Assembly: GCA_035533075.1 (NCBI GenBank) | Contig: DATLUO010000131.1 | Location: forward strand, 1-58,910 | Reading direction: 5' to 3' | Source of the DNA: Pirellulales bacterium | GTDB lineage: Bacteria > Planctomycetota > Planctomycetia > Pirellulales > JAICIG01 | DNA: 58,910 bases | Shown: positions 20,976 to 51,839 of the stretch, piece by piece | Position numbering within the stretch: position 1 is the first letter of the stretch | How the letters are laid out: each line of letters opens with the position of its first letter | Notes under the pieces: model-generated | Told to the model about the DNA's origin: nothing | Database searches by the model: none | What the model saw: only the letters and a program-made list of their open reading frames with translations | Made by a program: the position numbers and the translations under genes

Positions 20976-21135
20976 GCGGTGGGCTGGGGCAGAGCTTGGC
21001 CGGGCGCGGCTGGATTTGCCAACACGCCCTGCGGCCAAGCGATGCCCCGGTAGCAGCGCCACCGGGGCATCGCTGGCCGACGGCGTCATGGGGATTGCAA
21101 GACCGCGCCCGGCCAGCTTATGCCCCAGCCACCGC
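20976..21135. repeat. Nested palindromic repeat (C arms around a D hairpin)
   Basis: C-type arms at 20976-21010 and 21104-21135 (GGCTGGGGCAGAGC and its complement) enclose a D-type hairpin, GCGATGCCCCGGT against ACCGGGGCATCGC (21033-21078). The same nesting occurs at 25738-25895. Confidence 0.85.
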
Positions 21136-22937: not shown

Positions 22938-22963
22938 CAGATGCGCCGCGCGCGGCGCATCTG
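22938..22963. repeat. Perfect 26-base palindrome 1
   Basis: The half-site CAGATGCGCCGCG is followed directly by its exact reverse complement, ten bases after the stop codon of the small cysteine protein. Confidence 0.9.
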
Positions 22964-23063: not shown

Positions 23064-23089
23064 CACTTGCGCCGCGCGCGGCGCAAGTG
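23064..23089. repeat. Perfect 26-base palindrome 2
   Basis: The half-site CACTTGCGCCGCG is followed by its exact complement. The central 18 bases are identical to palindrome 1, while the outer arms differ but remain self-matched. Confidence 0.9.
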
Positions 23090-25125: not shown

Positions 25126-25677
25126 TTATTCGTTCGCGCCGTCCAGTTCCTTTGAAGGGACCGGTTCCTCGCTTTCTGGGGCCGGTCCGTTCTCGCCGCC
25201 TGGCAGCGTCTGTTGCTTCAAGTATTTGGGCAACACGGTCCCGCGCCTCAAATTCGGCGCCGCGGCATGATCGCCCGGAATCGCAGTCAGTCCTGCGGTT
25301 TCACCACGCACGACCACACCTTGTCGGCCCAGCAGACCGGCGATCGGACCCAGCACCGGGCCGCCACGCGGCGCGAACTTGCTGTTCGGCATATAAGGCA
25401 CCCAGGTATCGCCGGTGTAATAGGACCAGGCGTCGTCTTTGGTCCAATACCACCAACGACCGTTGTGCAGACGGTAGCGCCACTGGTTTTCAGGCCGGCC
25501 CGGCGGGGTTGCGGCCGAAGGTGGTCCCCAATAAAAGACGTGCGGACCGGCCGGGGCTTCGTTGCCGGGCATCGCTCGCGAATTGGTAACGTCCTGGGCC
25601 GACGCGGTGGTCGCCGCAACCAGCATCACGCCGGCAGCCACCGCGGCCGGCGCCGTCAAAAAACTTAAAATCCTCAT
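25126..25677 (-). CDS. Exported hypothetical protein
   Basis: This 183-residue protein has a clear signal peptide (MRILSFLTAPAAVAAGVMLV, cleavage likely after ASA). The start at 25677 is backed by AAGGAG upstream, in preference to 25821. The mature part has a Trp/Tyr-rich stretch (NQWRYRLHNGRWWYWTKDD) that is also seen in other planctomycete secreted proteins. Its function is unknown. It lies 46 bases upstream of the VWA gene on the same strand and may be co-transcribed with it. Confidence 0.7.
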   Translation of the reverse strand: MRILSFLTAPAAVAAGVMLVAATTASAQDVTNSRAMPGNEAPAGPHVFYWGPPSAATPPGRPENQWRYRLHNGRWWYWTKDDAWSYYTGDTWVPYMPNSKFAPRGGPVLGPIAGLLGRQGVVVRGETAGLTAIPGDHAAAPNLRRGTVLPKYLKQQTLPGGENGPAPESEEPVPSKELDGANE

Positions 25678-26064
25678 CACCCGCTCCTTGCTTGCTTGAA
25701 TGGTTTTATACTTCACACGCACGAGAATGAAACATTGGCGGTGGCTGGGGCAGAGCCTGGCCATGTGAAGGCCAGCACCTCGTTCATCTCGGCGGCCAGG
25801 CGATGCCCCGGTTGGTCGCACCGGGGCATCGCTTGGCCGCCACGCTGTTGAGGGTCGCTAGCCGCTATTTGGCCAAGCTCTGCCCCAGCCACCGCTTTTC
25901 CTCGCGGCGAACCGTCTCCTTATCGGCCGAGTGAAGTATAGCTGCTAGAATCATAGGTCGGACGCGGTGCGGCGTCATATCGAGGTCGTCATTGACGCCG
26001 TCCCTTCGGGGTCGGGATAATGGCGGCTGTGTCGGGCCCGCTCCTTTTCCATGCCAACCTCTCC
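25678..26064. other. Intergenic gap filled by the 234-base nested repeat element
   Basis: The divergent promoters of the 25677 (minus) and 26065 (plus) genes must lie here, but the gap is mostly occupied by the repeat element at 25707-25940. Confidence 0.6.
25707..25940. repeat. 234-base triple-nested palindromic element with TATACTTCAC inverted ends
   Basis: The ends are TATACTTCAC (25707-25716) and its complement GTGAAGTATA (25931-25940). Inside are C arms (25738-25762 and 25871-25895), and within them a D hairpin (25791-25812 and 25820-25838). The right end through the C arm repeats almost exactly, inverted, at 43296-43363. Confidence 0.85.
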
Positions 26065-30507: not shown

Positions 30508-30861
30508 GTTTGGCCTCCATGCCTTGCTCGAATTTGCCCGGCGGGCGGGCGGGGATGACCCGGCTGCCGCCGCCAGCGCGGCAGCAGCGAGGGCGGGATT
30601 CTAGCGAGAGACGGCGGCCCGTCCAAGGTGAATTGTCGGAGGATTCACCGATCTCTGTAGGGAACGGACTCCGTGCCGTTCCGCCGGATGTCGATCGACG
30701 TTCCGTCGGTCCGCACGGAACGGCACGGAGTCCGTTCCCTACAGAGTACGGGGCGAAAACGCGTTACCGCACCCGCTCGGCTTGACCCTTGTGCGAAGTG
30801 GGTGTTAGACTTCCTGCCGCGCCAAGGAAGGACATCAAACACTGCGAGCGAAGGAGCGACC
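30508..30861. other. Divergent intergenic gap with an F-type palindrome
   Basis: This 354-base gap must hold promoters for the RmlD-like gene and for the plus-strand glycan genes. Its main visible structure is the perfect inverted repeat at 30653-30746. Confidence 0.55.
30653..30746. repeat. F-type perfect inverted repeat
   Basis: Arms 30653-30683 and 30716-30746 (31 bases each, CTGTAGGGAACGGACTCCG...) match perfectly. The homologous arms at 37816-37846 and 37874-37904 differ in sequence but are also perfectly matched to each other. Confidence 0.9.
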
Positions 30862-33422: not shown

Positions 33423-35213
33423 ATGAGAATCTTTGCACGACACGGTTTGTGGGACGGTCCGCTTGCGGAGCAAGCGGGCTACGAGGACGAGCTTCTGCTG
33501 GAGGGAAGCTGGCCGGCCGACCGGCAATGCGCGGGACGGTGGTCGCTCGACGAGTCGATCGATGCGCGCTTCGCGTGGATCGACCAGCGGGCGATTGAGT
33601 TGGCGGAAATCGCCGCGGGCGGCGGGCCGTCCGACCCTCCGGCGACGAGCTTTCCCTACATCAATGCGCTGAGCTTGCGTTATTTCCTTGTCAAGCTGCT
33701 GCGCGTGTCGGGGTTCTTCAAAGACGTTCGGACGCTGACGCCCGGCGAGCGCATCGATCTGTACCTGACGGCCCATCGCGACGAAGCGTATGCCGTCCTC
33801 ATTCAGCAACTCGCGCAGCAATGCGAAGCGACGCTCGAAGTGCATTGGCGTCAACCGCCCGCGCGGAAAGCGGCCAAATTGCGGCGAGCGCTTGCTTGGC
33901 GACAATGGGCGGAACGTGCCCGCCGCTGGCCCGCAGCGCCCCCAGCCGAAGAAGGCGACGGCGCGCCGCGCGTGGTGTTGTGCGGCAGTCCACGGATTTT
34001 GAACCCGGTTTGTGCCGAGCTGCTGGCGCGGGGCTGCCGCGTGTGGTGGTTGTACGAGCGGTTTGCTTTGCGTTGCTGGTGGCGCTGGCGGGCCGCGGGC
34101 GTCGAACAACTCGTGTGCGAGGCCGACGACGCGGTGGCGCGGCGATTCAACGATGCCTGGACCGGGGCGGAGCTTTGCTCGGACGGCATCGACCTGGCGC
34201 GGCCCCTCGAGCGATGGCTGGCGGAACGCGCGGCGGACGTGGGCGAGCAACAATCGGCTTTGATCGACCGCATCGAAGGGCATTTTCGCGCGGTCCGCCC
34301 CACCACCTTGGTGCTCGACGAAGACGCCACTCCGCTGAAGCGCATCGCCGTGGCACTGGCCCGCCGTCATGGCGCGCGGTCGTCTGTGGTGCAACACGGC
34401 GCGCCGTGCGGACCGTTTGGCTTCGTGCCGCCGGCCGCCGACGAGATTTGCGTCTGGGGCGAGTCTGCGCAGCGGCAGCTCGAGACCTGGGGCGTGGCGC
34501 CGGCGAAGATTCGAGTTGCGGGTTGGCCGAATCTCAAACCGCGTCTCTTGGAGCGTCCTCCGGCCCGGCCGACATCGCAGAGACCTGCCAGGCGGTTCTT
34601 GCTGCTGGCGACCGTCGAGCCGCGCGACGAGCGACCCGACGGCGTCGAGTTCCATCTCACGAGTGGCAACTACGCGCTGATGCTGCAGATGGTGCATGAA
34701 GTCCTATCGCAAATCGAACACGCCACGCTGACCATCAAGCTGCACCCTCGAGCTCGCAAGAAGGAGTTCATCCGCTTTCAGCCGCGATTGCAACCGTGGC
34801 TGGAGGACGGCAAACGGAACGAATCGCGTCCCGTATTGCCGGTGCGCGTGGTCCATTCCAAGAATCTCGCCCGATTGGTGGCGGCCAGCGATTGCGTGCT
34901 GAGCTGTGCTTCGACCGCCGGCATCGAAGCCGCCCTGGCCGGAGCACCGGTTGTGCAGATCTTGCCGATCGGTTCGGGCAACGTGCTGCCGGCCGACGAT
35001 TGGGGGTTCGTCGGCACCGCCCGGACCGCAGGCGAGCTGGCGGCGTTGGTCGACGCGGCTCTTGAGCGCGGCTGGGCCAAGCCGGCCGAAACCGCCGATC
35101 GGATGCTTGCCAACGTCGGCGAGGCCGCTGCTCGCTCAATCGTGGATGGCCTGATCGCCGACAGCGATCAACAGTTGTTGGTGCTCGGCGCATCCGGTCG
35201 AGAGCTTCCGTAA
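33423..35213 (+). CDS. GT-B-like surface polysaccharide glycosyltransferase
   Basis: This 596-residue protein has two Rossmann-like halves. Segments VVLCGSPRILNPVC and SSVVQHGAPCGPFGF, then CVWGESAQRQLETWG, TIKLHPRARK, and SCASTAGIEAALAGAPVV, are of the kind seen in capsule and polysialic-acid type transferases (PF05159-like). This suggests a transferase using CMP- or CDP-activated sugars. The precise family is uncertain. Residues 12-21 are encoded by a G-type repeat arm (33457-33482), so the N-terminus has acquired foreign sequence. The stop codon lies inside an A-type repeat. It starts two bases after the HAD stop. Confidence 0.7.
   Translation: MRIFARHGLWDGPLAEQAGYEDELLLEGSWPADRQCAGRWSLDESIDARFAWIDQRAIELAEIAAGGGPSDPPATSFPYINALSLRYFLVKLLRVSGFFKDVRTLTPGERIDLYLTAHRDEAYAVLIQQLAQQCEATLEVHWRQPPARKAAKLRRALAWRQWAERARRWPAAPPAEEGDGAPRVVLCGSPRILNPVCAELLARGCRVWWLYERFALRCWWRWRAAGVEQLVCEADDAVARRFNDAWTGAELCSDGIDLARPLERWLAERAADVGEQQSALIDRIEGHFRAVRPTTLVLDEDATPLKRIAVALARRHGARSSVVQHGAPCGPFGFVPPAADEICVWGESAQRQLETWGVAPAKIRVAGWPNLKPRLLERPPARPTSQRPARRFLLLATVEPRDERPDGVEFHLTSGNYALMLQMVHEVLSQIEHATLTIKLHPRARKKEFIRFQPRLQPWLEDGKRNESRPVLPVRVVHSKNLARLVAASDCVLSCASTAGIEAALAGAPVVQILPIGSGNVLPADDWGFVGTARTAGELAALVDAALERGWAKPAETADRMLANVGEAAARSIVDGLIADSDQQLLVLGASGRELP
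33457..33482. repeat. G-type repeat arm inside the glycosyltransferase gene
   Basis: GTCCGCTTGCGGAGCAAGCG and the following GGCTAC match the arm of the intergenic repeat at 26762-26792 and are translated in frame. Confidence 0.7.
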
Positions 35214-35306
35214 GGTGGGACAAGCGAGCTTGCGAGCGCTGGCCCACCGTAAGCGACGTCGTTCGCGGTGGGCCGGCGCTCGCAAGCTCGCTGGTCCCAC
35301 CTTACG
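35209..35306. repeat. A-type hairpin overlapping the glycosyltransferase stop
   Basis: Arms 35209-35249 and 35266-35306 (41 bases) match at 39 positions. The TAA at 35211-35213 inside the left arm ends the glycosyltransferase gene. The hairpin separates it from the flippase gene. Confidence 0.9.
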
Positions 35307-36939: not shown

Positions 36940-37847
36940 CGCTGGCCGAACTCGAACGCCGCTGCCAGAAGCCCGATTATCGCCAATCGGGCAATTGGAT
37001 GGCGCGCCGCATCAGCCGGCCGGCGGCTTTGCACGTCACGCGCGTGATTGCTCCCAGCGGAGTTTCGGCGCACGCCGTCACCGGCCTGGCCACGGCGGTT
37101 GCGCTGGCCGCGGCCTGCTGTTTCGGCATCGGCACGATCGGAACGTGTTTCGTGGGCGCTCTGCTGCTGCAAGTATGGTATCTGCTCGACCATGTCGACG
37201 GGCAGGTTGCCCGGCTCAACGGCACGGCTTCGCTCGACGGCATCCAGCTCGACTATCTCATGCACCACGTAGTCAATCTCGCTGTGCCGTTCAGCCTGGG
37301 TTATGGCGCTGGTCGAAGCGGCGGTGAGGCGTGGCTTCTTCTCGGATGCGCGTTCGCGCTCGGCCTGTTGCTCATTGGGCTGGCGAACGACACGCGGTAC
37401 AAGGCGTACATTGCTCGTCTCAAGCAGATCGAAGGCCCTTTGCTCGTCCAGCGGCGTGGGGCGGACGAAGTCGCCGCCGAACATCTCCGCACAAGCTGGT
37501 TTCAGGCCGGGCTTCGGCAGGCCGTATACTTGGCGCGGAAGCTCTGCGAGATACACGTTGTGATGAACGCGGTCACGGCCATCGCGGTTGCGCAGTGTTG
37601 GATCGGCCAAACGCTGCCGAGCAAGGTCTATCTGGCCATCATGTCGCCGCTGGCCCTCGTGACCGCGGTCGCCATCCTGGTGCGCGACGTAAGACGCCAG
37701 GCCGCCGAGCAGGACTATGCTGCCTGGTTCGCTCCTTGTCGAAGGGGGTCCTGCACGCCGACGTCCGCTATACTTCACGCGGTCGAGAATGACGCATTCG
37801 CGCCCGAACGACTCTCTGTAGGGAACGCCCTCCGTGGCGTTCCGTGA
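36927..37847 (+). CDS. CDP-alcohol phosphatidyltransferase with altered final Asp
   Basis: This 306-residue protein has about six helices and the CDP-OH-P signature as D88xxD91G92xxA95R96x8G105xxxD109xxx H113. The last aspartate, regarded as the catalytic base in this family, is histidine. It would transfer a phospho-alcohol from CDP to an acceptor, perhaps decorating the glycan or a lipid carrier. The C-terminal 26 residues (from AILHAVENDAF) are translated from the repeat element at 37769-37933, which also supplies the TGA. The native C-terminus was therefore probably lost. The start overlaps the flippase gene by 13 bases. Confidence 0.8.
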   Translation: MPRLTLAELERRCQKPDYRQSGNWMARRISRPAALHVTRVIAPSGVSAHAVTGLATAVALAAACCFGIGTIGTCFVGALLLQVWYLLDHVDGQVARLNGTASLDGIQLDYLMHHVVNLAVPFSLGYGAGRSGGEAWLLLGCAFALGLLLIGLANDTRYKAYIARLKQIEGPLLVQRRGADEVAAEHLRTSWFQAGLRQAVYLARKLCEIHVVMNAVTAIAVAQCWIGQTLPSKVYLAIMSPLALVTAVAILVRDVRRQAAEQDYAAWFAPCRRGSCTPTSAILHAVENDAFAPERLSVGNALRGVP

Positions 37848-37933
37848 TCCGCGAAATCACGTCGCCGCGGCTCCACGGAACGCCACGGAGGGCGTTCCCT
37901 ACAGACGTCTCATTTCCGGCCGCGTGAAGTATA
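37769..37933. repeat. 165-base nested element (TATACTTCAC ends, F core) inserted in the gene end
   Basis: The ends TATACTTCACGCGG (37769) and its complement (CCGCGTGAAGTATA, ending 37933) enclose a perfect 31-base F inverted repeat (37816-37846 and 37874-37904). The inverted ends stay similar for about 24 bases. The left part is translated as the tail of the upstream gene. Confidence 0.88.
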
Positions 37934-43295: not shown

Positions 43296-43418
43296 GATAC
43301 TTCACGCGGCCGAGAAAGACCTTTTGCCGCGAGGAAAAGCGGTGGCTGGGGCAGAGCTTGGCCGCACCGCGTGTTCTTATGCTCAGGCCAAGCGCGGCCA
43401 AGCTCTGCCCCAGCCACC
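43296..43418. repeat. C-type hairpin with one TACTTCAC end
   Basis: GATACTTCACGCGGCCGAG (43296) leads to the C arms 43339-43365 and 43394-43418. The 38 bases starting GCCGCGAGGAAAAGCGG equal, inverted, part of the element at 25707-25940. No matching right end was found. Confidence 0.82.
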
Positions 43419-43490
43419 TCCCATCCCCACCGCCAAAAGCCGCAATCGGCGGGCCGGCGCTCGTTCCGGCGCGCCGGGGCCAGTCCCAAC

Positions 43491-51503: not shown

Positions 51504-51839
51504 AGTAGACGCTCTTCGTGCGATGTTGGCCCCTGGCGGTGTGCTCTCCCGCCCGTCGCGCGTCCTGGCCGCACGCGGGGCGTGTAAGGTGGGACCAGCG
51601 AGCTTGCGAGCGCCGGCCCACCATTGTTAGGCGTCAGGTTTCAGGCGTCAGGCATCAGGTTGTTTGTCCTGAAGCCTGACGCCTGAAACCTGACGCCTCG
51701 ATTCCGTGGGCGGGCGCTCGCAAGCTCGCTGGTCCCGCCCTATATGCTGTGGCTTGCGCTGGCACAGCAAAGCGGGAGTGCTAGCACCCGAGTGCTAGCA
51801 GTGGGCTGCTAGCAGCAAACCTCGCGCCACTCGCCGGCC
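51504..51839. other. Intergenic gap holding the A(B) nested palindrome
   Basis: No gene was seen. The gap holds the repeat at 51584-51741 and, at about 51779-51811, an iterated GTGCTAGCA / TGCTAGCAG stretch. Confidence 0.6.
51584..51741. repeat. Nested palindrome: A arms enclosing a B hairpin
   Basis: A arms 51584-51622 and 51706-51741 enclose B arms (51629-51659 with GGCGTCAGG words, and 51673-51698 with CCTGACGCC words). Confidence 0.88.

Follow-up and report, generated by a model that had tools for sequence, protein, structure and literature searches.

A 234-base element between two divergent genes, in which palindromes are placed one inside the other, raises the question of what kind of element it is and how its layers came together. 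The window in which it lies comprises 58,910 nucleotides and is part of contig C131 of a Pirellulales genome assembly (8.54 Mb, 296 contigs). The three concentric inverted repeats claimed in the preliminary description are indeed present at 25707-25940, and the element occupies most of the gap between the divergent gene starts at 25677 (minus strand) and 26020, the latter belonging to an rpiA-like gene; judged from its position, it could possibly affect the promoters of both genes. With T denoting the outer inverted repeat, T-hub the element bounded by it, and C and D the inner repeats, the features of this copy are:

25707-25733 / 25914-25940: outer inverted repeat pair
25738-25776 / 25857-25895: C inverted repeat pair
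25791-25812 / 25820-25841: D inverted repeat pair
25707..25708, no strand: putative left copy of the TA target duplication (from a filled/empty comparison at another locus and TA conservation in 112 ends)
25709..25938, plus strand: complete copy of the T-hub MITE with C/D cargo (234 bp counting both TA; ~89% identical to the 26-copy consensus)
25709..25736, plus strand: left terminal inverted repeat, decayed (consensus TACTTCACGCGGCCGAGAATGAGACATT)
25738..25895, plus strand: C/D cargo of four related palindromic units alternating as C+, D-, D+, C-
25791..25841, plus strand: D core hairpin within the cargo (inverted-repeat search)
25911..25938, minus strand: right terminal inverted repeat
25939..25940, no strand: putative right copy of the TA target duplication (from the filled/empty comparison at another locus)

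The outer ends recur throughout the 8.5-Mb genome. TATACTTCAC is present in 73 exact copies compared with 3 for the reversed control, and BLAST of the element against its own genome gave at least 85 matches with 69-100% identity (40 of 348 candidates scored). Alignment of 26 full composites of ~229-238 bases (mean pairwise identity 89%) resulted in a consensus that starts with TATACTTCACGCGGCCGAGAATGAGACATTGGC and ends with GTCTCATTCTCGGCCGCGTGAAGTATA, indicating that the true outer repeat is ~30 bp long (TATACTTCACGCGGCCGAGAATGAGAC...; TACTTCACGCGGCCGAGAATGAGAC...) rather than 10 bp as initially described; in the copy at 25707-25940 the outer arms are internally decayed. The boundary is sharp in 112 aligned ends: conservation sets in with the first T of TATA (74%), both TA positions are kept in 74-75% of the ends, and the base just outside shows a pyrimidine bias only (34 of 45 at one end, 30 of 46 at the other). 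The preliminary description had named a lack of further copies, or ends that vary randomly, as findings that would speak against it, and the copy number as well as the sharp boundary are the opposite of both. Being short, bounded by terminal inverted repeats and dispersed in many copies, the T-hub has the general features of a MITE.

Lone T ends with ~12-17 conserved bases were observed beside gene starts or ends (L010 (C39:90320), L019 (C72:3812), L152:8910, L206:10186, L213:10715 and L153:9647), and a serS-like start follows one lone T end at a distance of ~45 nt. No partner end was found at these loci, and simple decay does not account for the lone ends. On C118 (L150:8036-8240) a C-type hub abuts an F-type hub, and the 18 bases at the start of one of them are repeated at the junction, as if the two had recombined between their terminal repeats. 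A fold-back with identical inverted flanks at the end of contig C81 was treated as an assembly artefact.

Within the window TATACTTCAC occurs six times at up to one mismatch, with 0.32 occurrences expected and none of 100 shuffles reaching six. The earlier observation that the outer pair matches the ends of a 165-base element (37769-37933) as well as the start of an element at 43296, which reads GATACTTCAC, was confirmed. These elements and their relatives without T ends are:

37769..37933, plus strand: T-hub with F (GTAG-type REPIN) cargo, 165 bases
37815..37905, plus strand: F REPIN in the 37769 hub, CTGTAGGGAACG...CGTTCCCTACAG, arms 100% complementary
43296..43450, plus strand: degenerate T-hub that has C arms but no longer its right T end
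30648..30751, plus strand: standalone F REPIN without T ends
20982..21130, plus strand: standalone C-type palindrome without T ends

Standalone inverted pairs of a further type, R, are located at 35209-35306 and 51580-51747, the latter enclosing a palindrome of the GGCGTCAGG repeat at 51629-51698. The self-complementary 18-mer TGCGCCGCGCGCGGCGCA is found twice in the window (22942-22959 and 23068-23085) with a spacing of 126 bases.

How the T-hub inserts can be read from a site that exists with and without it. The flanks of complete copies were joined and the joined sequences searched for, yielding one clear case. The filled site on C114 reads CCGT[TATACTTCAC...GTGAAGTATA]AAAAG (right flank AAAAGTTGGCC), and empty paralogs on C39 (88% identity to the C114 site over 113 bases) and C215 (91% over 115 bases) read CCGTTAAAAAG / CCGTTAAAAAGTTGGCC with a single TA. 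This comparison identifies TACTTCAC...GTGAAGTA as the mobile unit and demonstrates that the TA target is duplicated, the insertion turning TA into TA-TACTTCAC...GTGAAGTA-TA in one event, seen at one filled locus as compared with two related empty paralogs. A target duplication extending beyond TATA was rejected as the flanks do not match, and reading frames across insertion points yielded no second test of the TA duplication. With terminal inverted repeats, a duplicated target and empty sites at hand, the non-autonomous mobile element suggested at the outset is borne out. Both empty sites sit in another repeat family with ends near GGCCGGTGAAAACTTGGCC (L221:9350-9830 and L212:8950-9240); this repeat itself carries REP-like repeats, and on C215 it interrupts a C arm, having the 12-base repeat GGCAGAGCCTGG on both sides.

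Targeting and duplication of TA typifies TA-specific DDE elements of the IS630/Tc1-mariner type, and the T-hub combines it with a symmetric YTAR preference. TA targets are used by certain other IS groups as well. From these ends, the transposase acting on them is probably of the IS630/Tc1-mariner kind. A transposase with matching outer ends, as sought in the preliminary description, was not found in the same genome, neither as an autonomous element with T ends (scans with PF13358, PF01797, PF01609 and PF13586, and inspection of lone T ends) nor as a Y1 gene with flanking T ends (TACTTCACGCGGC). IS630-type genes on C255 and C144 have terminal repeats that differ from the T ends; the IS630-like gene on C255 (L189, 866-2093), with terminal repeats CTAGTGCCCCGTCCAGACTAAATTTTCGGGT that are 97% complementary, is probably part of an intact insertion sequence unrelated to them. 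As the assembly is fragmented, with several copies located at contig ends, it may lack a multi-copy IS. The IS630 assignment is thus an inference, and we classify the T-hub as working like an IS630 MITE, not as being one.

Inside the same T ends unrelated cargoes are found at fixed junctions, the commonest composite being C/D with T ends (28 of 50 candidate pairs). C and D are related to each other (GGGGCA..GCTTGGCC), which makes C/D a four-unit array whose units alternate in orientation; allowing up to one mismatch, GGTGGCTGGGGCAGAG matches 372 times. The distance from a T end to the start of the C arm is 33 nt on one side (42 cases) and 47 nt on the other (34 cases), a single fixed arrangement that supports multiplication of the C/D composites as a unit via the T ends. 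C/D carries no GTAG/CGTC tag, and no transposase could be tied to it. F cargo (CTGTAGGGAACG...CGTTCCCTACAG) occurs in hubs with two different junction sets and R cargo (GTAGGGTGGGACCAGCGAGC...) in hubs on C195 and C278, both F and R being inverted pairs of GTAG-tagged palindromes, and other hubs contain D alone or, at C280, a further GTAG repeat. The fixed junctions indicate one or two capture events per cargo, followed by amplification via the T ends. Since C/D, F, R and additional GTAG REPs all occupy the centre between these ends, the T-hub is also a host for smaller repeats, and the two alternatives originally offered, a non-autonomous mobile element or such a host, hold together. This does not establish the hub as a preferred REPIN landing site, as by a rough estimate tolerance of insertions only between genes would give several hub hits by chance.

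The explanation we consider likely is that the outer ends constitute a TA-duplicating MITE, the T-hub, moved in trans by a DDE enzyme, that the hub centre receives smaller repeats, and that the resulting composites are amplified. The T-hub with its ~30-bp terminal inverted repeats would be mobilized by a DDE-type transposase cutting at TA within YTAR and duplicating the TA, and the middle of the hub hairpin would repeatedly have received smaller palindromic repeats, including the C/D array and the GTAG-type REPINs F and R, before the composites multiplied as units through the outer T ends. Cargo-free hubs are rare, one being 68 nt long and one of 56 nt looking like an internal deletion, and given this rarity the order of assembly stays a proposal.

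Alternatively, T, C and D might represent one original element, copies without T ends being its decayed or deleted derivatives. The prevalence of C/D among the composites is in line with this, as are several short hubs (56-82 nt) that are clear internal deletions. Standalone C/D, however, stops sharply at GGTGG...CCACC borders in unrelated flanks, and a single origin does not account for the unrelated F, R and other cargo inside the same T ends. Moreover, C/D copies are present in a sister genus with no T ends around the copies read, suggesting that the C/D cargo may be older than the T-ended composite. We thus regard a single origin as unlikely and retain the assembly of a TA-duplicating hub with separate cargo.

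The genome also contains 14 Y1 matches, of which two fall in genes with flanking F or R repeats. The REP-associated tyrosine transposase gene on C190 (L203, C190:2895 region) is flanked by F repeats and scores 75.3 bits to NF047646, just under the cut-off of 80, and the one on C135 (L205, C135:27138 region) is flanked by R and scores 169.5 bits. REP/REPIN systems characteristically have their repeats on both sides of the transposase gene, which makes both loci candidate REPtrons for the F and R cargo, and we infer that cargo arrived by its own transposition, in the case of F and R via the REP-associated tyrosine transposases of this genome. The REP-associated Y1 enzyme proposed in the preliminary description hence fits the F and R cargo, but is unlikely for the outer ends, where TA duplication and the symmetric YTAR preference point to a TA-specific enzyme of the DDE type.

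These Y1 genes, the REP-like inner modules and the description of Y1 genes flanked by terminal inverted repeats (PMC3733652) would agree with the whole element, outer ends included, being a large REP/BIME structure moved by Y1 REP-associated transposases via single-stranded DNA. Yet REP/REPIN insertion occurs without target duplication, and neither the duplicated TA at the empty sites nor the equal pyrimidine preference at both ends is expected for a Y1 enzyme; moreover, no Y1 gene is flanked by T ends. An origin of the entire structure from Y1 transposition is thus quite improbable. That the element is a selected structured RNA, terminator or regulatory hairpin is highly improbable: a single strand folds into one very stable hairpin (z = -12 as RNA and -11.6 with DNA parameters as compared with shuffles) and lies between divergent gene starts, but no Rfam match was obtained, and the two arms within a copy resemble each other no more closely than arms taken from different copies do (mismatches per 24: T 2.65 vs 2.82, C 2.16 vs 2.10), indicating that pairing is not maintained.

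None of 391 other genomes of the phylum contains the exact 15-base T end, indicating that close copies are rare; with one mismatch it is found only sporadically among 57 relatives. Scanning genome contigs with a 27-mer gave nothing, and a 17-base scan of public genomes gave 13 loci that are mostly chance or coding matches. In Limnoglobus (Gemmatales) there are eight T-end sites at up to one mismatch as opposed to none in the controls. One of its elements, 242 bases long and starting with TATACTTCACGCGGCCGGAAATGAGACGT, has 29 bases identical to the end of the F-type hub and a different palindromic cargo, and other T-end sites of this genome carry a GTAG repeat (GTAGCCGCAGG...). Planctomicrobium and another Planctomycetaceae MAG have one T end each beside a GTAG-type inverted pair, the other end being decayed or absent, and a Methylococcales contig contains a 137-base element with similar ends. 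Tentatively, and with considerable doubt, TA-inserting MITEs might be spread planctomycete-wide with their hairpin loop as preferred REPIN landing site, a DDE system outside and Y1 RAYTs inside forming nested layers and REPINs being carried across orders. Should planctomycete orders share these ends with varying cargo, as Limnoglobus and Planctomicrobium suggest, the origin and spread of composite intergenic repeats would become testable through a comparison of cargo junctions among genomes.

No description of the T-hub family was found in the literature searched, but the initial statement that no family like it had been described was too strong, as its outer part works like Correia/NEMIS, RUP and ERIC, and F and R are REPINs with RAYTs. 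Like Correia/NEMIS, RUP and ERIC, reviewed as small TA-duplicating MITEs (PMC2229807), the T-hub is small, non-coding and intergenic, has terminal inverted repeats with terminal TA, duplicates TA, forms a strong hairpin and is present in many copies. It differs from them in its unrelated sequence, its host and phylum, and its interchangeable central REPIN cargo, and whereas RUP has been linked to IS630-Spn1, a partner IS of the T-hub was not found. REPs, RAYTs and Y1 genes flanked by terminal inverted repeats have been described, including in Planctomycetes (PMC3733652), as have REPINs (PMC3116915), with GTAG REPs among those of Planctomycetes (PMC3733652, PMC3116915). F and R resemble these systems in their GTAG-tagged inverted pairs and the RAYT genes flanked by them, whereas the T ends duplicate TA and lack the GTAG/CGTC tag, and C/D lacks the GTAG tag as well. 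The mechanism is an ordinary one, but the T-hub is a new, modular MITE family. It provides a worked case of the nesting of small repeats, in which a TA-type MITE carries REP-type repeats and filled and empty sites reveal the outer step. The pneumococcal BOX, RUP and SPRITE repeats, which have inserted into each other on a number of occasions (PMC3049150), are likewise nested families of small repeats; in contrast to them, a single hub has been multiplied together with its fixed-junction cargo, and this hub is met again in other orders, where its cargo differs.
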